From Chloroflexota bacterium (lineage in GTDB: Bacteria; Chloroflexota; Dehalococcoidia; Lucifugimonadales; UBA3495), in the NCBI GenBank assembly GCA_009840165.1, contig VXOG01000111.1, positions 21,649-85,648 on the forward strand: DNA of 64,000 nt, read 5' to 3'. This document shows positions 6,366 through 57,819 of this stretch, in pieces. The position numbers and the translations under genes are program-made. Numbering within the stretch: position 1 is the first letter of the stretch; the number at the start of each line of letters is the position of its first letter. A model generated the notes under the pieces. It was not told the origin of the DNA, ran no database searches, and was given only the letters and a program-made list of their open reading frames with translations.

Positions 6366-8012
6366 TTAAAACGCGCGCTTGTGGGAATAGTCTATCTCCT
6401 CGTTGGTGATGAATTCCAGCAGGACGGCGTTGCCGTCTTCATTCTGGCGGCGGGCGCGCTGGAATGCGGGGATGATTTCGTTAGGATCGGTGATGCGCTC
6501 GGCGTATCCGCCCATGGCCCGGCCCATGTCGGCGTAGTTGCCGCCCAGGTCGCGGGTGTTGTAGAGATCATGGGAACGCTGCATCGCGCCGGTTTCCACG
6601 GCCATGGTGGAGTTGTTGAGCACGACGGTGGTGATGGGCGCGCCGCTGCGCACGGCAGTCTCGAAGTCCAGGCCCACCATGCCGAAAGCGGCGTCGCCCA
6701 TAAAGTTGACGCACATCTTGTCGGGCGCGGCCAGTTTCGCACCGATGACCAGGCCCAAGCCGGTACCGAGGCCGTGGGATTTGCCCCAACCCAGATAGCT
6801 GCGCGGCCCGCCGGAGCGGTAGAAGGGAGTAATCTGATCGCGGGGGCTGCCGGAGTCGTGGGTGATGATGGCTTGGTCTGAGGGTACAGCCTGCTGAAAG
6901 TCGGTGATGACTCGGTAGGGGTTGACCAGCGGGCCGGCATCGGTGGTCTTGTGCCGCCACTCGGCTAGCCAGGCATTGCGGACGGACTCGATCTCGCCGG
7001 TGACTTCGGCGTTGTTGCGGCGGTTGTCGCCGATGATTTCGCGGCACGCTTCGATCATCTGGCGGAGGGCCAGCTTGGCGTCGCCGATTACGGGGAACTG
7101 AACGTCGTAGTCCTTGTTGAGGTCGCGGGGATCGTTGGTGTTCTGGATCAGGGTGCGGCCGGCCGGCAGGTTCATGGACATGCCGTGCTTTGTGAAGCTG
7201 CAGCCCACGCCGAAGATTACGTCCGCGCGGCGCATGAAGTGATACACCGTCCCCGACATCACGCCGGAACCGCTGCCCAGGGCCAGGGGGTGATGTTCCG
7301 GGAATCCGCTCTTGCCCAGCAGGGTTGTCATAACCGGAACCGACAGCAGTTCGGCCAGCTCCACCAGTTCGTCGGTGGCCTCGGCGTACATGACGCCCTG
7401 GCCGGCGTGGATGACCGGGTAGGTGGCGGAGCACAGGGCGCGGGCCGCGGCTTCAACGTCGTCGGGGTCGGCCTGGGAGGCGGAACGGCGCACGTTGCCG
7501 CCCCAGTAGAACGCTTCCTCGGACACCTCTTCCAGCGCCACGTCGGCGGGAATCTCGATCATGGAGGGGCCGGGCCGGCCGGTGTAGAGGGCGTTAACGG
7601 CGCGGCGCATAACCTGGCTGGTGCTGCCAGACAGGTTGAGGCGTTCCAGGTGCTTGGTGACACTGGCAAAACTCTCTATGGAGTCGAACATGGGAAAGAC
7701 GCCCTGGCGTTCGCGGGGGTGTCCCAGGGGAAGCAGCAGGATGGGCACGGAGTCGGAGAATGACGTAGCCACGCCAGAGTAGGCGTTCTCGGCGCCGGGA
7801 CCGTACTGCATGGCGAACACGCCGGGCGGCCGGCCGTTGGTTACGCGGCTGTAACCGTCGGCGATGCCAACGCCCACGCGCTCCTGGCGGCAGATGACGG
7901 GACGGATGCCGGCGGCGGCGCAGGCCTCGATTACGGGAGTGGTGGGGAAGCAGGACAGGTATTCAACACCCTCCCGTTTCAAAATTTCTGCGATAGCGTC
8001 AATGGTCTGCAC
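6366..8012 (-). CDS. thiamine pyrophosphate-requiring enzyme (acetolactate synthase / 2-hydroxyacyl-CoA lyase superfamily)
   Basis: TPP enzyme layout: VICRQERVGVGIADGYSRVTNG N-terminal domain and GDAAFGMVGLDFETAVRSGAPITTVVLNN C-terminal GDG-type motif. Confidence 0.85.
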   Translation of the reverse strand: MQTIDAIAEILKREGVEYLSCFPTTPVIEACAAAGIRPVICRQERVGVGIADGYSRVTNGRPPGVFAMQYGPGAENAYSGVATSFSDSVPILLLPLGHPRERQGVFPMFDSIESFASVTKHLERLNLSGSTSQVMRRAVNALYTGRPGPSMIEIPADVALEEVSEEAFYWGGNVRRSASQADPDDVEAAARALCSATYPVIHAGQGVMYAEATDELVELAELLSVPVMTTLLGKSGFPEHHPLALGSGSGVMSGTVYHFMRRADVIFGVGCSFTKHGMSMNLPAGRTLIQNTNDPRDLNKDYDVQFPVIGDAKLALRQMIEACREIIGDNRRNNAEVTGEIESVRNAWLAEWRHKTTDAGPLVNPYRVITDFQQAVPSDQAIITHDSGSPRDQITPFYRSGGPRSYLGWGKSHGLGTGLGLVIGAKLAAPDKMCVNFMGDAAFGMVGLDFETAVRSGAPITTVVLNNSTMAVETGAMQRSHDLYNTRDLGGNYADMGRAMGGYAERITDPNEIIPAFQRARRQNEDGNAVLLEFITNEEIDYSHKRAF

Positions 8013-8072
8013 GATAAAACCTCAGTTGCGGCGCCGGCGGGCGAATTCGCAGCCGGCGTTCGGATACCCAAG

Positions 8073-8081
8073 AGTATAGCA
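8073..8081 (-). promoter_or_regulatory. extended -10 element TGCTATACT
   Basis: Minus-strand GGTGCTATACTC about 60 nt upstream of the TPP-enzyme start at 8012. Confidence 0.45.
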
Positions 8082-8179
8082 CCGCAGCGGGATTGGTCTG
8101 GTTGCAAGGGCAGCCAATGTAACCGCCCCTGCCAGATCATTGACAGCGAGTGATCGCAGGACTTTACGGGGGAATTTCG

Positions 8180-8219
8180 ATAGGGATTCCTCCTATTAGA
8201 TAGGGATTCCTCCTGTTAG
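8180..8219. repeat. two tandem 20-bp units ATAGGGATTCCTCCTRTTAG
   Basis: ATAGGGATTCCTCCTATTAG ATAGGGATTCCTCCTGTTAG, one mismatch. Confidence 0.85.
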
Positions 8220-8619
8220 GGTGTTAGTGTCTGCCAGAGGTGATGTTTCCGGTGGTCGTTGTCAGCCCCACGGCCGAGGGGTTACGCATGGGTTTTTGCT
8301 CACTCAAGGTTTGGCGGACGGCGCACGGGCAAGGAAGGAATCCCTCACCCAATCCTCTCCGGGAGTAGATGGAGAGGCGAATGCGACGGACGCCCAGCGT
8401 GTGAGCAGGCGCTGGCCCCGTTGCGACCACGCCGGTTAGATATTGACCGGACGCTGGTCCTGGCGAGAGCGGGTATGCGATTTCGGATTCTGACGGGTTG
8501 GCCGTGTACGACCTTGGTTATCACCTCTGGACAGGACAGAATAGACTATAAGTTCCAACGCGCGTGTCGCCATTATGGACTCATACGTTCGGCATTGTCA
8601 AGAGGGTGATCCAGTTTGA

Positions 8620-8764
8620 CAGGGCCTTTTCAAAGTTAATCCGTCATTCTCGCGCAAGCGGGAATCCAGAAAGCCGTTGTGCTCAGGATGTCCTGGATTC
8701 CGGCTTTCGCCGGAATGACGGGTTTGGATGAAAGTCCGCCGCCCTCGACTTTGAAAAGGCCCTG
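8620..8764. mobile_element. MITE-like 145-bp non-coding element with 17-bp perfect terminal inverted repeats
   Basis: CAGGGCCTTTTCAAAGT (8620-8636) and ACTTTGAAAAGGCCCTG (8748-8764) enclose two inverted CCGTCATTC...GGAATCCAG palindromes. Confidence 0.6.
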
Positions 8765-8832
8765 CCACCTTGATTGTGCCGGCAGGGATACAGGGCTAGA
8801 ATGACTGCGAAAATCGAAATGGGAGTTTGATA

Positions 8833-10029
8833 TTGACCAGCGGAGCTTTGGCCGGCGTCAGGGTTATCGACCTGACCCACCACATCGCCGGCCCATACGC
8901 CACCAAGCTGTTGGCCGATTTCGGGGCCGACGTGCTGAAGATCGAGAGGCCCGGCGGGGATCCAGCTCGCCGGTTGCCGCCGTTCTTCCACGACGAACCG
9001 CACCAGGAAAAGAGCCTGCCGTTCCTGTACCTGAACACCAACAAGCGCAGCATCACGCTGAATCTGAAATCGGAGGAGGGGCGCGGTATTCTGCTGGAAC
9101 TGCTGGCGGACGCCGACGCTTTGGTGGAGAATTTCGCGCCTCGCGTGATGCCATCGCTGGGGTTGGATTACGAGACGCTACGGGGGCACAATCCGCGCCT
9201 GGTAGTAGCGTCGGCGTCCAACTTCGGCCAGACGGGGCCGTGGCGGGATTATCGGGCGACCGAGATTGTAGAGTACGCGCTGGGCGGGCTGATGTATATC
9301 TTCGGGGCTTACGACCGGGAACCGTTGAAGCACGCAATGAACCAAGCGCAGTTCAAGGCGGGCACCAACCTGGCGTCGGCGACGCTGATGGCGCTGTACC
9401 ACCAGCGGCTCACCGGTCAAGGGCAACGAGTGGACGTGTCCATTCAGGAAAGCATCGCATCGGCGCTGCGGGACGTCATCAACAACTACACCTACCTGGG
9501 CGCGGTACGGCGCCGGCAGCCCAACCACACCGGCGACCTGACGCGGCTGCGCGCGGTGTCGGATGGGTACGTGCTGCCTAACCCGGGAATCGGCGCCGGG
9601 TTGAACTGGCAGATCCTCGTAGATTTCCTTGATGCTCCCCAGTTGGACGATCCCCGGTTCGAGAACGCATCGGCACGGCTGGTAAACGCCGAGGCGTTGG
9701 GCGAGATACTGGACGAGATATTCGCCACTAAGCAGAAGCGGGACATCTTCTATGCGGCCCACGAGAAGCGGTTCATTTACGGCGTGATAGACTCGCCCGC
9801 CGAAACCATTGAGAACCCACAGATACAGGCGCGCGGTTACTACCAGCCGGTGGAGCATCCGGAACTGGGTGAGATTACGTTCCCGGGCGCGCCTTTCCTG
9901 ATGAGCAGTTCGCCCTGGGCGGTGAATTCGACCGCCCCGGCGCTCGGCCAGCACAACGGTGAGGTGCTGGGTTCGTTGGGGTACGACGCACAGGGAATGG
10001 CTTACCTGGCCGCATCGGAGGTGATCTAA
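8833..10029 (+). CDS. CaiB/BaiF family (family III) CoA-transferase
   Basis: GALAGVRVIDLTHHIAGPYATKLLADFGADVLKIERPGGDPAR; TTG start preceded by GGGAG (track starts at 8827). Confidence 0.93.
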   Translation: MTSGALAGVRVIDLTHHIAGPYATKLLADFGADVLKIERPGGDPARRLPPFFHDEPHQEKSLPFLYLNTNKRSITLNLKSEEGRGILLELLADADALVENFAPRVMPSLGLDYETLRGHNPRLVVASASNFGQTGPWRDYRATEIVEYALGGLMYIFGAYDREPLKHAMNQAQFKAGTNLASATLMALYHQRLTGQGQRVDVSIQESIASALRDVINNYTYLGAVRRRQPNHTGDLTRLRAVSDGYVLPNPGIGAGLNWQILVDFLDAPQLDDPRFENASARLVNAEALGEILDEIFATKQKRDIFYAAHEKRFIYGVIDSPAETIENPQIQARGYYQPVEHPELGEITFPGAPFLMSSSPWAVNSTAPALGQHNGEVLGSLGYDAQGMAYLAASEVI

Positions 10030-10030
10030 C

Positions 10031-11383
10031 ATGGCTGGACCGTTGCGGGGTGTACGCATCGTCGAGATGGGGCAGCTGATCGCCATACCGTCGGCAATGA
10101 AGTGGCTGGCCGATATGGGCGCGGAAGTCATCCGCCTGGAGTCGGTGCAACGGCTGGAAAGCTACCGTACGGACTCGCTGTATCACAACGACGTGGATGG
10201 GGAGTTTTGGAATCGAGGCGCGAACTTCTACGAGCAGAACCGCAACAAGCTGGGGCTAACGCTAGATTTAAGCCGCGACGAGGGGAGGGAAGTGCTGCGC
10301 GACTTGATCGCCGTCGCCGACGTGTTCGCCGAAAACTTCACGCCGCGGGTAATCCGCAACTTCGCGTTGGAATACACGGACCTGAAGAAGATCAGGTCTG
10401 ACATAATCATGGTGTCGTCCACCGGATACGGATTCGATGGGCCGTGGTCGAACTTCGGCGCGACCGGGCCGGCCACCGAAGGCGCGGCGGGTCTGGCTTA
10501 CATGACGGGCTACAAGGGCGGCGGGCCGATGATGTCGGAAATTCCGTACACCGACTACACCGCCGGAGAGCACACGGTTGCCGCCGTGATGCTGGCGTTG
10601 ATGCACCGGCTGAACACGGGACAAGGCCAGTTCATCGACGTGTCGCAGACGCAGACGTGCAGCGCGACGATTCCAGAGGCCCTATTGGACTGGACAGTGA
10701 ACGGTCGGGTGGAAGAACGGATGGGCAACGAGGACCCGGCCATGTCTCCCCATGGATGCTACCCGTGCGCCGGAGATGACCGGTGGATTGCCATCGCCAT
10801 TGGCAGCGACGAGGCGTGGTATGCGTTGTGTCGCGTCATGGGACGGCCGGACTGGGCGGCGGACGAACGGTATAGCGACGTGCTGCGCCGAATTCGGCAT
10901 CGGGAAGAGTTGGACACGATGCTGGCGTTTGAAACCCGGACCCACGACAACCATGAGTTAATGGCGAAGTTGCAGGCCGAAGGTGTCGCCGCCGGCGCGG
11001 TGATGGACAGCGAGGACCTGCTGTTCAATGAACACCTGAAGGAGCGTGGATTCTACGAAGTGGTGGAGCATCATCCCGATACCGGGATGCCGCCGCTGCC
11101 TTACGCGGGCCGCCCGTGGAAATTGTCGGACACGCCGGCGGGCCCGCCCCAAGCGGCGCCGATCATGGGTCAGCACAATCGGCAGATACTCGCGGGGCTG
11201 CTGGGCAAAACGGACCACGAAATCGTGGCGCTCGAAGAGTCCAACGTGATCGGCTACACGCCGTTGACGCCGCGCGGCGTGCGTCGGCCGTCGCTGGACG
11301 AGCAGGTGCGGCAGGGCAGGATGCAGAGGTATGAAACGAACTACGCCGAACGAGTGCGGGAGCGGTTCGGAATTGGAGAGTAA
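10031..11383 (+). CDS. CaiB/BaiF family (family III) CoA-transferase
   Basis: GPLRGVRIVEMGQLIAIPSAMKWLADMGAEVIRLES...TGYGFDGPW...QHNRQILAGLLG. Confidence 0.93.
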   Translation: MAGPLRGVRIVEMGQLIAIPSAMKWLADMGAEVIRLESVQRLESYRTDSLYHNDVDGEFWNRGANFYEQNRNKLGLTLDLSRDEGREVLRDLIAVADVFAENFTPRVIRNFALEYTDLKKIRSDIIMVSSTGYGFDGPWSNFGATGPATEGAAGLAYMTGYKGGGPMMSEIPYTDYTAGEHTVAAVMLALMHRLNTGQGQFIDVSQTQTCSATIPEALLDWTVNGRVEERMGNEDPAMSPHGCYPCAGDDRWIAIAIGSDEAWYALCRVMGRPDWAADERYSDVLRRIRHREELDTMLAFETRTHDNHELMAKLQAEGVAAGAVMDSEDLLFNEHLKERGFYEVVEHHPDTGMPPLPYAGRPWKLSDTPAGPPQAAPIMGQHNRQILAGLLGKTDHEIVALEESNVIGYTPLTPRGVRRPSLDEQVRQGRMQRYETNYAERVRERFGIGE

Positions 11384-49091: not shown

Positions 49092-50306
49092 CTAGCCGGG
49101 TATTTCGTCGTAGTGGTCGAAGTTCCCGATAACGTTGGCCTCGTACAGAGCCTGCACCTCGTCCTCGGAGTAATCCAGGAGGCCCGTGAGCACGTCTTCG
49201 TTGTGCTCCCCGACGCGCGGCGTGGTTCCGACGACGGCGGGCGTGCGGCTGAAGTGCCAGAAGTCGCCGGACACGGCAATGGTGCCGGCTAGGAAGTCGT
49301 CAACTTCGACCATGGCCCGCCGCTCCCACGGATGCGGATCGGCGGCCGCCTGCGCGATGGTATTTACCGGGGCAGCCACCACGTCATGGTGCGTAAAGTG
49401 CGCGATGGCTTCCCGCATGGTCATGTCGGCCATCAGGTCGCGCATTGCCTGGTTGACGGCCTCGCCATTGCGGCCTCGCTCGTGCCGCGTGGTGAAACGC
49501 GGATCTTCCAGCCACTCGGGCTTACCCAAAGCGTTGCACACGCGATGCCAGTGGTGCTGGTCGCCGGCGGAGATGAGCACCCAGCCATCCTTGCACGGGT
49601 AAGTTCCCGACGGCGGCGCGGCGGACTCGCCGCGACGCGGTTCGATGCCAGCGCCATGGTAGGCGGTGACCGGGATCTCGGTGTAACTATAGCCGGTGTC
49701 CGCGAGACAGGCGTCAATGGTCTGGCCTACACCGGAGGACTCACGCTCGTGCAGGGCGGCCAGGGTGCCGATGGCAGCGTGGAGGGCGGTGGTCCGGTCG
49801 ATGATGGGCACGCCGGCGCGGATGGGCGGCATTCCCTCTTCACCGGTTACCATGGCGATACCGGACATGGTCTGCCCAATGGGGTCGTAGCCGATCTGGT
49901 CCCGGTACGGACCGAATTGGCCGTAGGCCGACACATTGACCATGATGATGCGCGGGTTCAGTTCGTAGAGCACGTCGTAGCCGAAGCCCATGATGTCGAT
50001 GGTTCCGGGCCGGAAGTTCTGCAACAGGACGTCGGATACCTTCACCAGTTTGCGGAGAACCTCCTTGCCGTCCTCTTTGCGGAGGTCAATGCTCAGGCTC
50101 TTCTTGCCGCTGTTGTACTGCACCCAGTAGGCGGACTGCTTGCGCACCCAGGGAGCGTGGTAGCGGGTCTCTTCGCCGCCCAGTCGCTCTACCTTGATGA
50201 CCTCTGCGCCCAGGCGGGCCAGCACTTGGGCGCAACGAGGGCCGGCCTGGTGCCGACCCAAGTCAATTACTCGTATCCCGTTCAGGGGGCCATTCGCTTC
50301 TGCCAT
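49092..50306 (-). CDS. CaiB/BaiF family CoA-transferase
   Basis: [40 protein letters not shown]; start trimmed to ATG 50306. Confidence 0.92.
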   Translation of the reverse strand: MAEANGPLNGIRVIDLGRHQAGPRCAQVLARLGAEVIKVERLGGEETRYHAPWVRKQSAYWVQYNSGKKSLSIDLRKEDGKEVLRKLVKVSDVLLQNFRPGTIDIMGFGYDVLYELNPRIIMVNVSAYGQFGPYRDQIGYDPIGQTMSGIAMVTGEEGMPPIRAGVPIIDRTTALHAAIGTLAALHERESSGVGQTIDACLADTGYSYTEIPVTAYHGAGIEPRRGESAAPPSGTYPCKDGWVLISAGDQHHWHRVCNALGKPEWLEDPRFTTRHERGRNGEAVNQAMRDLMADMTMREAIAHFTHHDVVAAPVNTIAQAAADPHPWERRAMVEVDDFLAGTIAVSGDFWHFSRTPAVVGTTPRVGEHNEDVLTGLLDYSEDEVQALYEANVIGNFDHYDEIPG

Positions 50307-50461
50307 AACCGGTTCTCCTAAACTTTTGGATTCATTTGCCCCGGCTTTGACCAACGGAAAGCGCGGGCGACAATAGCGTCGCGGCTCCAATCAGACGCGG
50401 CGTTTTCAAGTGTCGCCATTCTACGCCGCAAGTGCAGGATGGGCAAGCGCGAGGAAATGGG

Positions 50462-51721
50462 TCAGACCGCCCCTTCCGCTGCCAGTTCCGATAGCTGTTC
50501 CGGCGTTAGTCCGCCCAACGTGCAGAGGATCTCGGCGTTGTGTTCGCCCAGGGTGGGAGGAGCGCCGGCCGGCGCCGATTCGCAACCAGTGAGCCGGATT
50601 GGTGTAGCCAGCGACCGGAACGTTCCGCCCAGAGTGTCCTCGGTGTCCGTGTACATCCCCCGCGCCTCAAGCTGCGGGCAACCAGCCAAATCCGCCACGC
50701 TTTGCGTTACACCCATGGAAAACCCGATTTCGGTGAGCTTGCCGGCCACTTCCCATTTAGGACGTACAGATGACCAGGATTCTATAGCCGGGATCACCTG
50801 ATCAAACACAAAATCTGCGTCGGGAAACTGTTGCAGGTAGCGTTCATCCTGTGTTGGCAGATCAGATCGCTCAACCAGGTCCCACAGCGCTGCCAGGCGT
50901 TGTGGACTGCGCACGCCGGCCATGATGACGTAGCCGTCAGCCGCCCGAAACACCAGGCCGGGCCCCAGTGATCCCTGTCGGGTACGCCCCGGAATTTGGC
51001 CAGTAGCCTGATATGCGTTCATGTTGCTGATCACATGGGAGGCCATGCAGTCGTACATTGCCACGTCAACGTGTTGCCCCTGGCCCGTCTGGCGCCGGGT
51101 TTCTAATGCCAGGACGATGCTCAACGCGGCCCAAACCCCCGGCACTGAGTCGCCCATGTTGTCGCCGACCGCTTGCGGCCTGCCGTCGGGCTCGCCGGTA
51201 ATCTCCATCCAGCCCGACATGGCCTGGATTGCCAGGTTATTCGCTGGCCAGTTCGAGTAAGGGCCGCGCGCGCCGTCGCTGTCTCCGTACCCGGTGATCT
51301 CGGCGTAGATCAAGCGTGGGTTGATTTCGCCCAGCCGGTCATATCCCAGGCCCAGCCGCCGGAACGCGCCCGGCCCCCAGTTGTCCAACAACACGTCGGA
51401 GTTGGCAACCAGATTCTCAAAGGCCGTCTTGCAGACCGGATTTCGCAAGTCCAGGGTAACGGATTTCTTGTTGCGGTTGACGCCAAGGAACCGACTGCTG
51501 ACCTGCCCGGTTTCAGCATCGCCAATGAACGGGCCACGGCCGCGCGCCAGGTCACCGGTGCGAGGCCGTTCAATCTTGATGACCTCCGCGCCCATGTCCG
51601 CCAGGATCAGCGAGCAAAACGGCCCGGCAACGATGTGCGTGGCATCCAGAACGCGGACGCCATTCAGGGGTAAGGGCAGAGTCGCCGCGGGCTTGGCCGT
51701 GGGAATTTCGGAATCAGGCAT
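50462..51721 (-). CDS. CaiB/BaiF family CoA-transferase
   Basis: NGVRVLDATHIVAGPFCSLILADMGAEVIKIERPRTGDLARG. Confidence 0.93.
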   Translation of the reverse strand: MPDSEIPTAKPAATLPLPLNGVRVLDATHIVAGPFCSLILADMGAEVIKIERPRTGDLARGRGPFIGDAETGQVSSRFLGVNRNKKSVTLDLRNPVCKTAFENLVANSDVLLDNWGPGAFRRLGLGYDRLGEINPRLIYAEITGYGDSDGARGPYSNWPANNLAIQAMSGWMEITGEPDGRPQAVGDNMGDSVPGVWAALSIVLALETRRQTGQGQHVDVAMYDCMASHVISNMNAYQATGQIPGRTRQGSLGPGLVFRAADGYVIMAGVRSPQRLAALWDLVERSDLPTQDERYLQQFPDADFVFDQVIPAIESWSSVRPKWEVAGKLTEIGFSMGVTQSVADLAGCPQLEARGMYTDTEDTLGGTFRSLATPIRLTGCESAPAGAPPTLGEHNAEILCTLGGLTPEQLSELAAEGAV

Positions 51722-51772
51722 AGTGAATCATCCCCAAGTTTTGGTTTTTCTCCATGCCAAGTTTACGACAAA

Positions 51773-52558
51773 TCACGACACGTACTCTGCCAGTGACCGC
51801 AGCGCCGCCCGCGCACCCTTTCGCATCGGCTCGAAGTGGCTGAAACAAAGTATCTCGAAATCCAGTGAGGCCAGCTTTTGCACCGATCTTTTCGCCGCTT
51901 CCATATCGCTGGTGAACCAACGCGACGGCAGCGTTAGTCGTCCCTGGTATCGTTGTATCGCATCGGCCACCAGCAGCGCCCCCTCGTTAGGGAAATGCAG
52001 ACTGATACTCCCGGGGGTATGACCCGGCGTGTGGACCACTCTGGCCCCGCCCAATAACGGCAGGCAATCCCCATCATCCAGCTCGGTCGCCACCGGAAAA
52101 TGAGGGGGTGTCATCGGAGCCATCAGCGGCCACATCAAAGGACGTAGCCAGCGTGGTTCGACCGGATTCGGAATGACCTTTCCCGGCTTGCCGGCCAGGT
52201 ATGGCGCCTCCAGCCAGTGTGCTGATACCGGGGCGCCGGTCGCCCGCCGCAGCCCGGCCATTCCTCCTACGTGGTCCGGATGGTAGTGAGTGGAGATCAA
52301 CCGCTCCACTGAGTCCGCGCCATACCCCAGCCCTCCCAGGTAGCTCAACAGAGGACGATTGTGGAAGCGCCGCCACCCCGAGTCAATCACCGTTACCGAT
52401 GCTTCGCCGCTTTCAGCATCAGGCGTGATTACGATAAAAGCGCTGGTGACGCCCAGCGAGCGTTGGTGAAGTCCCGGCAATACCTCTCCTACCCCAACCC
52501 GCGGCCCGGGTATGCTGGGCGGACGGTATATCAACTCGTCGGGAATTGGCCAATCCAT
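51773..52558 (-). CDS. MBL-fold metallo-hydrolase
   Basis: STHYHPDHVGGMAGLRRATGAPVSAH; VVHTPGHTPGSISLHFPNEGALLVADAI. Confidence 0.92.
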   Translation of the reverse strand: MDWPIPDELIYRPPSIPGPRVGVGEVLPGLHQRSLGVTSAFIVITPDAESGEASVTVIDSGWRRFHNRPLLSYLGGLGYGADSVERLISTHYHPDHVGGMAGLRRATGAPVSAHWLEAPYLAGKPGKVIPNPVEPRWLRPLMWPLMAPMTPPHFPVATELDDGDCLPLLGGARVVHTPGHTPGSISLHFPNEGALLVADAIQRYQGRLTLPSRWFTSDMEAAKRSVQKLASLDFEILCFSHFEPMRKGARAALRSLAEYVS

Positions 52559-52588
52559 ACCTCAAGTACATCCGATGCAGCGACGAAA

Positions 52589-53986
52589 TCAACTTCGCAG
52601 GTCAATGACCCGCCGGGCTTTGACCTGTGTACGCTCAAACTCCCCTTCCGGTTTGAGCTCCACCGAAACCCCAACGCCCAACGCCCGTCGCAGCGTGTCG
52701 CCAACCTGGGCGCGTAAGGACTCCAATGCCTGCGGCCCACCTTCGCCGGCGGCCCATACCTGAGCCGAAACTTCCGTCTGCACCGTCAAGCGGTCAAGAT
52801 AGCCGCGCTCCCGTTCCACCACGAGCCGGAATTCGCCGCCAAATTCGTCCCACCCGCGTAGTACGTCCTCCACCCGCGAAGGAAATACGTTCTGGCCTCG
52901 TATGATGAGCATGTCGTCGGCCCGGCCGTAGATCCCCAGCGGCAGGGTGGGATAAGTGCGCCCGCACGGACAGTCGATCATGTCCCAACGGGCAATGTCC
53001 CCCGACCAGTACCGGATCATGGGCTGGGATTCCCGCTCCAGGTGCGTGTACACGGGTACGCCCTCCGCACCCATGGGAACTACTTCGTGGCTCTCGGCAT
53101 CCATCAACTGCGTGTACACGATGTCCTGCCACAGGTGCATCCCCCGCTCCAGGTGGCGACATCCCCCGTTGGTCATCCATGGCGTCATTTCCGCCATGCT
53201 GCCTTGATCCACTACGTAGCATCCGAAAGCGTCCTCAATCGCCTGCCGGGTGGTTGGGACACTCGCTCCGGGTTCGCCGCTGAAGAACATCAGGCGAAAC
53301 GCGAAATCGGACCGCGGGTCAACCCCCATCTCCCGCGCGGTTTCCGCCAGGTAGAGCGCATACGACGGCGTGGCGTACAGCGCCGCAGGCTTGACCATCT
53401 GCGCCCACTCCACAGCGCGCTCCGTCTGCCCCGGCGTGCCGGCGCCAAACGGGAAGCACGCCGCGCCCAGCCGCTCCGCGCCGACCAGCGCGCCCCAACT
53501 GCCCACGTACAGGCTGAAAACCGCCGCCACCATTACCGTGTCGCCGGGCCGGACGCCGGCGGCCCACAGGATGCGCGCGTGGGCCTCCCCGATACGTTCC
53601 CAATCACCCCGACTGATACCAAATACCGTAGGCCGGCCCGTGGTGCCTGACGTGCCGTGAATCCGGTACACCTGGTCGGGAGGCACGCACAGGAACCGTC
53701 CGTATGGGGGGTATTCCTCTTGCTCCCTGCGGACTTCTTCCTTGGTGAGGATGGGCAGTTGCTCGAACTCTTCCAAGCTTCTGATGTTGGACGGGTCAAC
53801 CGGCGCATCCCGCCAGAATTCCCGGTAGAAACCCGAACGCTCCCAAGCGTACCGAACCTGGCCCTGAATCTTCTCCAAGACCACCGCATCCCGGTCCTCA
53901 GGAGCCATGGATTCCAAGTGACTGTCCCAGTGTTCCGCCTCACCGGGAGGGACATAAGCGGGATCGTATCTTGGCGGCCAGGGCAT
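52589..53986 (-). CDS. phenylacetate-CoA ligase (PaaK)-family AMP-forming ligase
   Basis: HGTSGTTGRPTVFGIS; TYPTLPLGIYGRADDMLIIRGQNVFPSRVEDVLRG; FERTQVKARRVIDLR. Confidence 0.92.
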   Translation of the reverse strand: MPWPPRYDPAYVPPGEAEHWDSHLESMAPEDRDAVVLEKIQGQVRYAWERSGFYREFWRDAPVDPSNIRSLEEFEQLPILTKEEVRREQEEYPPYGRFLCVPPDQVYRIHGTSGTTGRPTVFGISRGDWERIGEAHARILWAAGVRPGDTVMVAAVFSLYVGSWGALVGAERLGAACFPFGAGTPGQTERAVEWAQMVKPAALYATPSYALYLAETAREMGVDPRSDFAFRLMFFSGEPGASVPTTRQAIEDAFGCYVVDQGSMAEMTPWMTNGGCRHLERGMHLWQDIVYTQLMDAESHEVVPMGAEGVPVYTHLERESQPMIRYWSGDIARWDMIDCPCGRTYPTLPLGIYGRADDMLIIRGQNVFPSRVEDVLRGWDEFGGEFRLVVERERGYLDRLTVQTEVSAQVWAAGEGGPQALESLRAQVGDTLRRALGVGVSVELKPEGEFERTQVKARRVIDLRS

Positions 53987-53992
53987 CGCGGA

Positions 53993-54430
53993 TTACCTGC
54001 GGAGATTGTCGTTGATGAACTGCACCATCTCGCCGGTGAACGTTCCCACCGGAAACACGCCGTCCACTCCGATAGCCTTCAATCCGGCAACATCGCCATC
54101 GGGTATTGTACCGCCTACCAACAGCGTAACGTCGCCGGAACCGAGGTCGCCACGTAGCCCATGCCGCTCCAGCGCTCCCACCATGCGCGGCATCAGCCGC
54201 ATGTGGGCGCCAGACAGGATGCTGATGCCAACCACGTCCACATCTTCCTGAGCCGCCGCCGCCGCCACCTGGTCCGCCGTAACCCGCATTCCCAGATAGA
54301 CGACTTCCATCCCGGCATCGCGCAGGGCGCGTGCGATGACCTTGATGCCCCGGTCGTGTCCATCCAGCCCCAGCTTGGCAAGCAGCACACGGGGAGGGTT
54401 GGCAGGCGTTTGATGAACTTGCGAGGTCAT
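53993..54430 (-). CDS. B12-binding small subunit of acyl-CoA mutase
   Basis: RVLLAKLGLDGHDRGIKVIARALRDAGMEVVYLGMRVTADQVAAAA (DxHxxG motif). Confidence 0.93.
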   Translation of the reverse strand: MTSQVHQTPANPPRVLLAKLGLDGHDRGIKVIARALRDAGMEVVYLGMRVTADQVAAAAAQEDVDVVGISILSGAHMRLMPRMVGALERHGLRGDLGSGDVTLLVGGTIPDGDVAGLKAIGVDGVFPVGTFTGEMVQFINDNLRR

Positions 54431-54475
54431 TGCTTTCTGTCCGCAAACACTATACCTCAGGCGCGCAAATGTCGT

Positions 54476-56098
54476 TTAAAACACCCCCGGGTCCACGTAC
54501 TCACCCCACTCGTCGCGCAACGCGCCCATGATCTCCCCTTCCGTAACGCCTGATGCCACGGCGGCGAGGATGGACGGCATCAGGTTCTCGTCCGCTCGCG
54601 CCGTCTTAACGATGTTCCGCAGGCCCGCCGTCGCGTCCGACTCGCTCCGTGCCTGCCGCGCGGTCGTGAGCCGCTCAATCTGCCGCTCCTCCTCGGCATA
54701 GTCGAACTCGAACAGCTCCAGCGACCCGGTGGACGCTGCCTCGTCGCGGTATTCGTCGTTCACACCAACGATGGTGTAGTCTCCGGACTCCACGCGCTGT
54801 TGGTAGCGGTATGATGCCTGGGCGATTTCGCTTTCGATATACCCGTTCCCGACGGCCTCCAGCATCCCTTGCAGCATACTGCCGTTGCCCATCCCGTCGA
54901 TCCGCTCGATATAGGCCATGGCCGCCTCTTCCAGCCGATTGGTCAGTGTCTCCAGGTAAGCCGACCCGCCCAGCGGATCGGGCGTCGCCGCCACTCCCGA
55001 CTCGTGCGCCAGGATCATCTGAGTCGCCAGCGAAATCCGCATCGCCTCTTCTGACGGAATGTCGTAAGCCTCGTCGTAGCCGCTGACGTGTAGCGACTGG
55101 GTTCCGCCCAGCACCGCCGCCAGCGCTTGCAGTCCGCCGCGCAGGATGTTGTTCAACGGGTCCTGCCGAACCAGCGTTGACCCCAGCGTCTGCGTATGGA
55201 ACCGCATCCGCATGGATTCGGGCCGCGTTGCCCTGTAGCGGTCCCGCATCAATCGCGCCCACATGCGCCGCGCTGCCCGGAACTTCGCGATCTCCTCGAA
55301 AAAGTCGTTATGCACGCCGAAGAAGTGCGACAACCTAGGCGCGAATGCGTCCACCGGAAGCCCGCGCCGTTGCGCCGACTCGACGTAAGCCATACCCTGC
55401 GCTATGGTGAACGCCAATTCCTGAATTGCGTCGGATCCGGCCTCCCTAGTGTGGTACCCGCTGATGGATATGGTGTACCAGTTGGGCACGTGTTTGGTGC
55501 AGAACTCCACCACGTCGGTGGTCAGTTTCAATGCAGGACCCGGCGGCAGGGCAAAGGTCTTCTGCCCGTGAAACTCCTTCAGCGAGTCGTTCTGCACCGT
55601 ACCGCGCAGCGACTCCCACGGCGTACTCCGCTTTTCGGCGGTGTGCAGGAACATCGCCAACAGCACGATGGCCGGGTGGTTGATGGTCAACGACACACTG
55701 GCCTGGTCCAGCGGTATTCCGTCGAACAGCTCCCCCATGTCGGCGGCCGAGTCGATGGCTACCCCCAGCCGTCCCACTTCGCCCTCGGCCAGCTCGTGGT
55801 CGGAGTCATAGCCGGTCAGCGTCGGATGGTCAAAGTCGGTGCTCAACCCGGTCTGCCCGTGGGCCAACAGAAACCGATAACGCTCGTTCGTCGCCCGCGC
55901 CGTCCCGAAACCGGCAATCTGCCGCCGCGTCCACAACCGGCCGCGGTACATGGTGGGGTAGGCCCCTCGCGTAAACGGAAACTCGCCGGGGTTGCCCAGG
56001 TCCGCCGTAGGGTCGAAACCGTCGGCGCCGAGCTGCGCCGGAGAGTACAGAGGCTCAATGGGAACGCCGGAGAGAGTGTGGAGGTCGCTGCTAGTCAT
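54476..56098 (-). CDS. acyl-CoA mutase large subunit, predicted 2-hydroxyisobutyryl-CoA mutase type
   Basis: MCM-family framework (GAYPTMYRGRLWTRRQIAGFGTARATNERYRFLLAHGQTGLSTDFDHPTLTGYDSDH; SISGYHTREAG); pocket residues I61, D88, Q179. Confidence 0.9.
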   Translation of the reverse strand: MTSSDLHTLSGVPIEPLYSPAQLGADGFDPTADLGNPGEFPFTRGAYPTMYRGRLWTRRQIAGFGTARATNERYRFLLAHGQTGLSTDFDHPTLTGYDSDHELAEGEVGRLGVAIDSAADMGELFDGIPLDQASVSLTINHPAIVLLAMFLHTAEKRSTPWESLRGTVQNDSLKEFHGQKTFALPPGPALKLTTDVVEFCTKHVPNWYTISISGYHTREAGSDAIQELAFTIAQGMAYVESAQRRGLPVDAFAPRLSHFFGVHNDFFEEIAKFRAARRMWARLMRDRYRATRPESMRMRFHTQTLGSTLVRQDPLNNILRGGLQALAAVLGGTQSLHVSGYDEAYDIPSEEAMRISLATQMILAHESGVAATPDPLGGSAYLETLTNRLEEAAMAYIERIDGMGNGSMLQGMLEAVGNGYIESEIAQASYRYQQRVESGDYTIVGVNDEYRDEAASTGSLELFEFDYAEEERQIERLTTARQARSESDATAGLRNIVKTARADENLMPSILAAVASGVTEGEIMGALRDEWGEYVDPGVF

Positions 56099-56163: not shown

Positions 56164-56943
56164 TTATGGGTCACGCTCGATGATGGCAATGTGCTCCACC
56201 GCATCGTCGCAAAGCTCTGGTAATAGGTTCTGTATGAGCGGGTTCATCTGACTGGTGCTCATCGGTCCGTTTTGGCGCAACACGTACCTGACCGCGTCGC
56301 AAAATTGAGCGGTGATTGACGCCCTGGGGTTAGTAGCAAACGCTTCGCCCGTCGTTCGCAGTTCCACCAGTCGCTCGTTCATGTTGTTGCGAATTGCGTA
56401 GTGGGCCGCCACCGCTCTATTTGACGCCGACCTTGCAACCGTAGCTTTGCTCGCCTGCGCTTGTTGCGCCATCGCGTCGAGTTCGGTCAGCGCGTCCGCG
56501 GGTACTAGAACCCCGAGATTGCCATACTCCCGTAGGTCCTGCGCGATGTCTTTCACTCCGCCCGGGTCGGTAATGGAAACTCCTAATTCGTGATTCCTGA
56601 ACAGACCGCCATTAGTGAGATTCGATGAGGTCACAATTGCGGTATGCTCATCTGCCACGTAGGCTTTGGCGTGCAGATAGCGCAGGTGACGAACCGTCGT
56701 ACCAGGAATTTGCTCACACAGCCACGCCAATGCCCCGATGTCCAGCGAGCCGTCAATCAGGCTATCCGCGTGCAAGTTAGTCAGCACGTCAACCCGCACC
56801 GATGCTCGCCGTGAACGCAATTTGCTTGCCAACCGTTCAACCGGCTGGCGAGTGATGTACGGCGCGGCGATGATTGCCGACTCTTGGATTGAGCCGGCGA
56901 ACCGGTCAAACGTGGCGCCCCATGGCGATTTGATGCTCTGCAC
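56164..56943 (-). CDS. phospholipase D-like (HKD) nuclease-type protein
   Basis: LHAKAYVADEHTAIVTSSNLTNGGLFRNHELGV; C-terminal winged-helix-like AVRYVLRQNGPMSTSQMNPLIQ. Confidence 0.75.
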   Translation of the reverse strand: MQSIKSPWGATFDRFAGSIQESAIIAAPYITRQPVERLASKLRSRRASVRVDVLTNLHADSLIDGSLDIGALAWLCEQIPGTTVRHLRYLHAKAYVADEHTAIVTSSNLTNGGLFRNHELGVSITDPGGVKDIAQDLREYGNLGVLVPADALTELDAMAQQAQASKATVARSASNRAVAAHYAIRNNMNERLVELRTTGEAFATNPRASITAQFCDAVRYVLRQNGPMSTSQMNPLIQNLLPELCDDAVEHIAIIERDP

Positions 56944-57056
56944 TCGAATCCCTCATCCCTGATGACGTGCCATTATTGAGCTAACGTAATCCGGTGCGCA
57001 AGCTGCCAGCGGCACTTTCCGGGATTACGCCTGCCTGAAAGCGCTTTACACGAACG

Positions 57057-57098
57057 AATATGAAAATGGCTGCCGCCCTCGAAACTAGAGCGACAGCC
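57057..57098 (-). terminator. Rho-independent terminator after TA module
   Basis: Minus strand GGCTGTCGC-TCTAGTTTCGAGG-GCGGCAGCC followed by ATTTTCATATT; 9-bp stem with one G-U. Confidence 0.6.
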
Positions 57099-57121
57099 GT
57101 TCAGTGTTCTGCCAATGCTTT

Positions 57122-57514
57122 TCAATCTGATGCAGCAACCGACGGATGCGCTTCTACTCTAATCAGAACCTCGACCGGGATTCCAAAGCGTTGGTGTAGT
57201 AATTGCGCCACTCCGTGCGTAATCGCTGTCTGCCCGGCTAACATCGCGTCAAGACTTTCCGCGTCTCCAGCCAATGAAATCAACTGCTCGCGCGTCACCA
57301 TTTGCTGGTCCAGCATGAACTCAAGCATTGAATGAGGATTGGGGGCGCCATTCATGGGATAGTGCTCGTCCTCATACTCTATGACCATCGCTGAGATGCG
57401 GATTAATTCCGCTTCCTCCGTACTGCCAGGAGCGCAATTTATCAAGTCATCGATTCTGGCTAGCGCTGCCTCGAACTCCGCTTCGGTTCGGATCTGCTTG
57501 ATTTCCAGCATCAC
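57122..57514 (-). CDS. higA: HigA-like antitoxin
   Basis: IRTEAEFEAALARIDDLINCAPGSTEEAELIRISAMVIEYEDEHYPM...MLEFMLDQQMVTREQLISLAG; directly downstream of HigB-like gene. Confidence 0.82.
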   Translation of the reverse strand: MMLEIKQIRTEAEFEAALARIDDLINCAPGSTEEAELIRISAMVIEYEDEHYPMNGAPNPHSMLEFMLDQQMVTREQLISLAGDAESLDAMLAGQTAITHGVAQLLHQRFGIPVEVLIRVEAHPSVAASD

Positions 57515-57819
57515 TAAACCTCCTCTGCATCGATTCTGTCGTATTCGGCGTGCGTGCCAATGAACCGGACAAAAACCATGTGGTACCGGTATCGGATGTG
57601 AACCACCAGCCGATAGGTATTACCCTTGATGTTAAACACTACCCGGTCGTTAGCGATGATACTCGCAGTGGGATAGTGCTGCTTCACGCAGGCCGGTGAA
57701 TCCCAATTTGCCTTTTCGGCATCCTTATGCCATGCGTCTAACGATCGTTCGGCGTCGGGGTATCGTTCCCAAAACTCCTGAAGCGTCCTTCTCTTAACGA
57801 CCCACACTACACCCTCCAA
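57514..57819 (-). CDS. higB: HigB-like type II toxin (RelE/HigB superfamily)
   Basis: RRTLQEFWERYPDAERSLDAWHKDAEKANWDSPACVKQHYPTASIIANDRVVFNIKGNTYRLVVHIRYRYHMVFVRFIGTHAEYDRID. Confidence 0.88.
   Translation of the reverse strand: MEGVVWVVKRRTLQEFWERYPDAERSLDAWHKDAEKANWDSPACVKQHYPTASIIANDRVVFNIKGNTYRLVVHIRYRYHMVFVRFIGTHAEYDRIDAEEV

Follow-up and report, generated by a model that had tools for sequence, protein, structure and literature searches.

A putative 2-hydroxyisobutyryl-CoA mutase/ligase operon of a separate lineage in a SAR202-type Chloroflexota genome

The stretch of DNA analysed here, called the window below, comprises 64,000 nt of contig VXOG01000111.1 from a Chloroflexota bacterium (assembly GCA_009840165.1). 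An earlier note, made from the sequence alone, described in it a run of six open reading frames (ORFs), and all six were found at the same coordinates, on the minus strand. The first three encode the large (catalytic) subunit of a B12-dependent acyl-CoA mutase of the 2-hydroxyisobutyryl-CoA mutase (HCM) type (54476..56098, 540 aa; PF01642, 644 bits), a small B12-binding subunit (53993..54430, 145 aa; PF02310) and an AMP-forming ligase of the 2-hydroxyisobutyrate-CoA ligase (HCL) type (52589..53986, 465 aa; AMP-binding and AMP-binding_C_2 domains of Pfam). A metallo-beta-lactamase (MBL)-fold hydrolase and two CaiB/BaiF CoA-transferases, CaiB1 and CaiB2, follow. The intergenic gaps across the run measured 45, 6, 30, 51 and 71 nt, the first four in line with the 6-51 nt reported for the first five genes. 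Scans for promoters and terminators revealed nothing clearly above chance. The assembly is 3.76 Mb in size and 96% complete. Relatives of the ligase at 85-91% identity were all metagenome-assembled genomes (MAGs) titled Dehalococcoidia, Chloroflexota/Chloroflexi or SAR202 cluster, indicating that the host is a SAR202-type member of the Dehalococcoidia.

The large subunit carries I61 within RQIAGF, D88 within STDFD and Q179 within HGQK, spaced by 27 and 91 residues. Alignment with MAFFT placed these residues exactly in the columns of Ile90, Asp117 and Gln208 of the HCM large subunit HcmA (PDB 4r3u), where methylmalonyl-CoA mutase (MCM) has Tyr89, Ala116 and Arg207, and HMMER agreed; both the spacings and the correspondence to HcmA claimed beforehand were thus borne out. 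An offset of 11 was used between the 4r3u chain and HcmA numbering, and it puts all three residues on what we take to be the published HcmA numbers. Ile90 and Asp117, together with Gln208, are the active-site hallmark of HCM, and Asp117 is said, from work by Kurteva-Yaneva et al. in 2015, to bind the substrate hydroxyl and to set stereospecificity; Asp88 would fit this (S)-type HcmA logic. The view that all three residues distinguish HCM holds for Ile and Asp but not for Gln alone, because the Phe/Ala/Gln (F/A/Q) enzymes, which resemble isobutyryl-CoA mutase (ICM) and include paralogues, carry Gln too. Ile and Asp are therefore the informative residues of the Ile/Asp/Gln (I/D/Q) pocket.

The MCM hallmarks Tyr89 and Arg207 are absent, with I61 and Q179 in their place, and so is the ICM-type Phe/Ala at the first two pocket positions, where the window enzyme has I and D. 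When NF006944 was used as a test for MCM, the score was 527 bits against a cut-off of 876. Two further mutases in the same genome have Y/A/R and F/A/Q pockets, so a third specificity is expected for the window enzyme. An identity as MCM or ICM was rejected on the pocket residues and these paralogues. Pocket residues common to MCM and HCM are conserved, for example R59, T167, Q169, Y215, the catalytic-type H216, R255, H301 and Q303. The closest PDB match of the large subunit was 4r3u, at 505 bits versus 431 for human MCM, and a search with the predicted fold also ranked 4r3u first (E 9.7e-38, template-modelling score 0.82). The AlphaFold model was moderate (mean predicted local distance difference test score, pLDDT, of 70), with a low-confidence active-site region and parts of the pocket below 50, and hence served for the fold only and not for active-site geometry.

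The small subunit matched 4r3u_C at 113 bits and 2yxb at 137 bits. Its base-off/His-on motif, D23-x-H25-x-x-G28, corresponds to a D-x-H-x-x-G that was invariant in the small-subunit alignment, and HCM is likewise built from a large catalytic subunit and a small B12 subunit that bears this motif.

The ligase had been called PaaK-like. An AMP-forming ligase it is, but not a generic PaaK: its best PDB match was the HCL structure 6hdw (2-hydroxyisobutyryl-CoA synthetase), at 522 bits versus 226 for PaaK, with 51% identity over 463 columns (nearly full length), and in a tree rooted on PaaK it fell inside the HCL group, clearly closer to HCL than to PaaK. All PaaK models of NCBIfam scored far under their cut-offs. 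Within that group it lies in another subclade than 6hdw, together with haloarchaeal HCLs. According to the literature (PMC7176365), hcl shares its operon either with hcmAB or rcmAB, alongside meaH and in most cases a GntR regulator gene, or with a thiamine pyrophosphate (TPP) lyase gene; set against the HCM/HCL operons published there, that of the window contains every gene except MeaB and GntR.

How far this gene set is conserved was examined by a mutase-seeded search of 197 sampled genomes of the host's order. A mutase copy of at least 64% identity was present in 31 of them, the window's own included, a few copies being near-identical duplicates of named loci or not separately extracted. I/D/Q was invariant in every copy examined (33 Dehalococcoidia rows besides the window in the column comparison), while the paralogues of the same genome read Y/A/R and F/A/Q, and the pattern is therefore not chance. 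HCL lay near the I/D/Q mutase in 30 of the 31 genomes, and in the remaining one the contig ends too early to show a ligase. In nearly every genome HCL and the B12 subunit were close by, with gene order preserved; one genome had them about 8 kb off on the opposite strand. By contrast, HCL was near none of six loci with non-I/D/Q mutases (four from relatives and both remaining mutase loci of the host genome). These order-level synteny counts lack phylogenetic independence. Only the trio of mutase large subunit, B12 subunit and ligase makes up the conserved unit, because the MBL hydrolase and CaiB1 accompany it only in the host genus, CaiB2 only in some members of that genus, and other neighbours vary by family. 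At ten loci of family f8/f19 Dehalococcoidia, the mutase groups with that of the window (about 65% identity), but the ligase (54-57%) falls in a different HCL subclade, as if ligases had been exchanged.

The pairing also recurs beyond the order. An HCL-seeded scan of genome contigs from 84,980 species yielded 338 relatives, and the best 80 of these 338 include Dehalococcoidia, haloarchaea, Rokubacteria, Acidobacteria, Methylomirabilota, Nitrospinota and Desulfobacterota, with a mutase adjoining HCL in most of the 80. Mutase-HCL pairs were found in haloarchaea, Rokubacteria, Acidobacteria and Proteobacteria, plus one phylum of 43 genomes that was searched separately and includes one MAG titled Bacillota and one titled Armatimonadetes. 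The mutases read I/D/Q in all these groups except for Desulfobacterota-type loci and a few others, which read L/L/S or similar. The closest pair found outside the Chloroflexota was on haloarchaeal plasmids of Natrinema zhouii and Halomarina sp. PSR21 (mutase 54-55%, ligase 56-57% identity). There, and in Haladaptatus halobius, the cluster runs TPP enzyme, HCL, HCM large subunit, HCM small subunit, MeaB; the two plasmid clusters share I/D/Q and His91 with the window and differ from it by the TPP enzyme and MeaB.

Some loci from these searches were recorded as side observations. At ten of them an HCL-like ligase (53-57% identical to the window's) lies beside an L/L/S B12 mutase, and one of the ten adds a TPP enzyme, a molybdopterin oxidoreductase and two 2-hydroxyglutaryl-CoA dehydratase-type proteins, a cluster resembling the ketone-degradation cluster of Desulfosarcina cetonica (PMC7888143). 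A gamma-carbonic-anhydrase-like hexapeptide protein occurs near HCM genes at two proteobacterial loci and, divergently placed, at seven loci of Dehalococcoidia family f19. The Sinorhizobium plasmid pC101c encodes a V/D/Q mutase with MeaB and without HCL, adjoining an aminotransferase and an enoyl-CoA hydratase; this mutase branches near HcmA on a long branch, so Asp at position 117 can occur without HCL.

From these comparisons, we infer that the trio is probably an HCM/HCL operon that acts on 2-hydroxyisobutyrate or a close analogue (probability roughly 0.7), with the MBL hydrolase and CaiB proteins outside its core. The activation and isomerisation of a branched hydroxy acid, proposed in the earlier note, are supported by the residue columns, the top match to 4r3u and the HCL partner in 30 of 31 genomes. 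The putative substrate would be a tertiary 2-hydroxy acid with a short chain, in all likelihood 2-hydroxyisobutyrate or a close analogue, which the ligase would convert with ATP to its CoA thioester. The two-subunit adenosylcobalamin mutase would then shift the CoA-carbonyl group via a 5'-deoxyadenosyl radical, giving 3-hydroxybutyryl-CoA. In this scheme, Asp88 (HcmA Asp117) would hold the substrate hydroxyl, and Ile61 and Gln179 would shape the pocket. The product would enter central metabolism, presumably through a dehydrogenase outside the 3HCDH family, and the genus-specific MBL hydrolase and CaiB transferases may recycle or exchange CoA.

The best characterised counterpart is HcmAB of Aquincola tertiaricarbonis and Methylibium petroleiphilum (4r3u; PM1 plasmid), which is alike in its two-subunit B12 mutase, its I/D/Q columns and its operonic HCL, and is the best match in sequence and fold. 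Several observations weigh against an equivalent function. The window mutase is 46% identical to HcmA overall, compared with 53-55% to some Chloroflexota MCM/ICM-like paralogues. Altogether 26 columns (His91 and about 25 other clade-diagnostic ones) separate the Dehalococcoidia enzymes from HcmA and its relatives, and conserved differences lie near the key residues: His91, three residues past the key Asp and common to the haloarchaeal enzymes, for HcmA Met120, Thr181 for Glu210 and Arg165 for Ser194. To judge from the alignment, these could mean another substrate. The gene order is large subunit, small subunit, ligase in the window versus small subunit, ligase, MeaB, large subunit in the HcmAB operon, and family-profile scans found neither MeaB nor GntR in the window operon, unlike that of HcmAB; these two genes are usual in HCM operons but not essential. 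The absence of a MeaB-type chaperone from the window had already been remarked upon, correctly; the sole MeaB of the assembly sits on another contig and may serve all three mutases. A 3-hydroxybutyryl-CoA dehydrogenase is annotated in the PM1 cluster, but the host genome has no 3HCDH-family dehydrogenase (no match to PF00725, and only short fragments for PF02737), and the step after the mutase would have to fall to a different enzyme family. Finally, since HCL-like ligases pair with L/L/S mutases in other bacteria, the ligase alone cannot fix the substrate.

These differences bear on whether the enzyme, while HCM-like, acts on some other tertiary or branched 2-hydroxyacyl-CoA, such as 2-hydroxy-2-methylbutyryl-CoA or the lactyl/3-hydroxypropionyl-CoA pair, through the same contact between Asp and hydroxyl in a remodelled pocket. 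The Dehalococcoidia clade conserves His91, Leu111, Arg165, Gly178 and Thr181, all of which differ from HcmA, the ligase is only 51% identical to 6hdw, a characterised HCM also turns over L-lactyl-CoA as a side reaction (PMC11599936), and where 2-hydroxyisobutyrate arises in nature is not known (PMC7176365). Against these points, the triad and the HCL partnership match the 2-hydroxyisobutyrate system, and we consider such a shift in substrate unlikely, though it retains a real chance.

Phylogenetic analysis addressed the relation to HcmA itself. In a careful maximum-likelihood tree, all I/D/Q enzymes and one V/D/Q row formed one group (support 89/85), which split into HcmA with its relatives (100/100) and the Dehalococcoidia with the haloarchaea (96/95). 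By these trees, the window enzyme and its haloarchaeal relatives are lineages separate from HcmA. A quick tree had set the window clade apart from HcmA, which the careful tree did not do, so the deep node is taken as tentative. When seven columns around each of the three pocket residues were removed for a second tree, HcmA, the Dehalococcoidia and the haloarchaea were each recovered at 100/100, and the three lineages grouped with one haloarchaeal F/A/Q row (97/89). In neither careful tree did the window enzyme clade with MCM or ICM. Two results leave the shared grouping tentative: without the motif columns, support for this deepest, I/D/Q node falls to 55/31, and approximately unbiased (AU) tests firmly rejected neither placement of the Dehalococcoidia enzymes with MCM (p 0.10) nor with ICM (p 0.05). 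In the best tree the HCM pocket arose once, but this is not proven. It is doubtful, with somewhat longer odds than a shift in substrate, that the Dehalococcoidia enzymes, with or without the haloarchaeal ones, acquired the I/D/Q pocket and the HCL partnership convergently to HcmA; with His91, they would then be a functionally new mutase subclass acting on a different tertiary hydroxy acid of natural origin, with sponge or marine dissolved organic matter as one conceivable source.

The AU tests and the 53-55% identity to the Chloroflexota paralogues would also suit a divergent isobutyryl-, pivalyl- or methylmalonyl-CoA mutase in which I/D/Q is incidental, but this is very improbable, as the enzyme lacks MCM Tyr89 and Arg207, no examined orthologue departs from I/D/Q, Y/A/R and F/A/Q mutases are already encoded in the genome and HCL accompanies the window mutase. 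Operation in reverse, from 3-hydroxybutyryl-CoA to 2-hydroxyisobutyryl-CoA (or to the free acid via the MBL hydrolase or CaiB) or feeding a TPP lyase to give acetone and formyl-CoA, has the slimmest chance: the mutase reaction is reversible (PMC7176365), the haloarchaeal relatives keep a TPP enzyme in their clusters, the genome has 16 matches to that enzyme and CaiB2 resembles formyl-CoA transferases, but no TPP gene adjoins the trio, the best genome match is only 33% identical, and the presence of an operonic ligase that consumes ATP favours activation for catabolism.

The three downstream genes encode the MBL-fold hydrolase (51773..52558, 261 aa; PF00753, Lactamase_B, 98 bits), the family III CoA-transferase CaiB1 (50462..51721, 419 aa; PF02515, CoA_transf_3, 332 bits) and CaiB2 (49092..50390; PF02515, 378 bits), all on the minus strand. 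The TTG start of CaiB2 is probably too early and the true start near 50306, because the family domain begins only after Met29 (about 50306). The MBL hydrolase has no close solved relative in the PDB and is possibly a thioesterase-type accessory. The genome contains 47 CaiB/BaiF genes, and an expansion of this family in SAR202 was previously described (PMC5395668, PMC6306507), so adjacency to the trio is weak evidence of function. A six-gene operon including these genes was proposed earlier: all six genes are present, but a joint functional role is not supported, and the MBL hydrolase and CaiB proteins were rejected as members of the core pathway on their genus-confined or sporadic occurrence and the family's size.

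Elsewhere in the window, at 6366-11383, a TPP enzyme over the NF004807 cut-off lies divergent from a tandem CaiB/BaiF pair (8827-11383), and the region is possibly a separate acyl-CoA pathway. Upstream of the operon, 56164-57819 holds a PLD-like protein, related to DrmC but under its cut-off, together with two short neighbouring ORFs that by eye resemble a toxin-antitoxin pair and matched no NCBIfam family; this arrangement is found upstream of the operon in several members of the genus.

The window thus holds a well-supported HCM/HCL operon and, by its residues, two-subunit form and ligase partner, a new lineage of a known enzyme type. In Kyrpidia tusciae, the (R)-3-hydroxybutyryl-CoA mutase RcmAB is HCL-linked too, and its kinship with HcmAB is described as no more than distant (PMC7176365). 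Catabolism of 2-hydroxyisobutyrate has so far been documented for a small number of bacteria only, and where the acid comes from in nature is given as an open question (PMC7176365). In the literature searched, which left out most subscription papers, no report of HCM in SAR202 or Dehalococcoidia was found, and the SAR202 papers PMC5395668 and PMC6306507 mention MCM only, or no mutase; as far as found, the pathway has apparently not been reported before from SAR202-type Chloroflexota. Given that HCM/HCL occurs across a large uncultured Chloroflexota order and many phyla, short tertiary hydroxy acids appear to be ordinary substrates in nature and not a fuel-additive oddity. More natural HCM diversity has been called for in the engineering of B12 mutases (PMC11599936), and the new lineage offers fresh scaffolds for it. 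SAR202 bacteria, regarded as likely degraders of recalcitrant dissolved organic matter (PMC5395668), would thereby gain a concrete, testable substrate.

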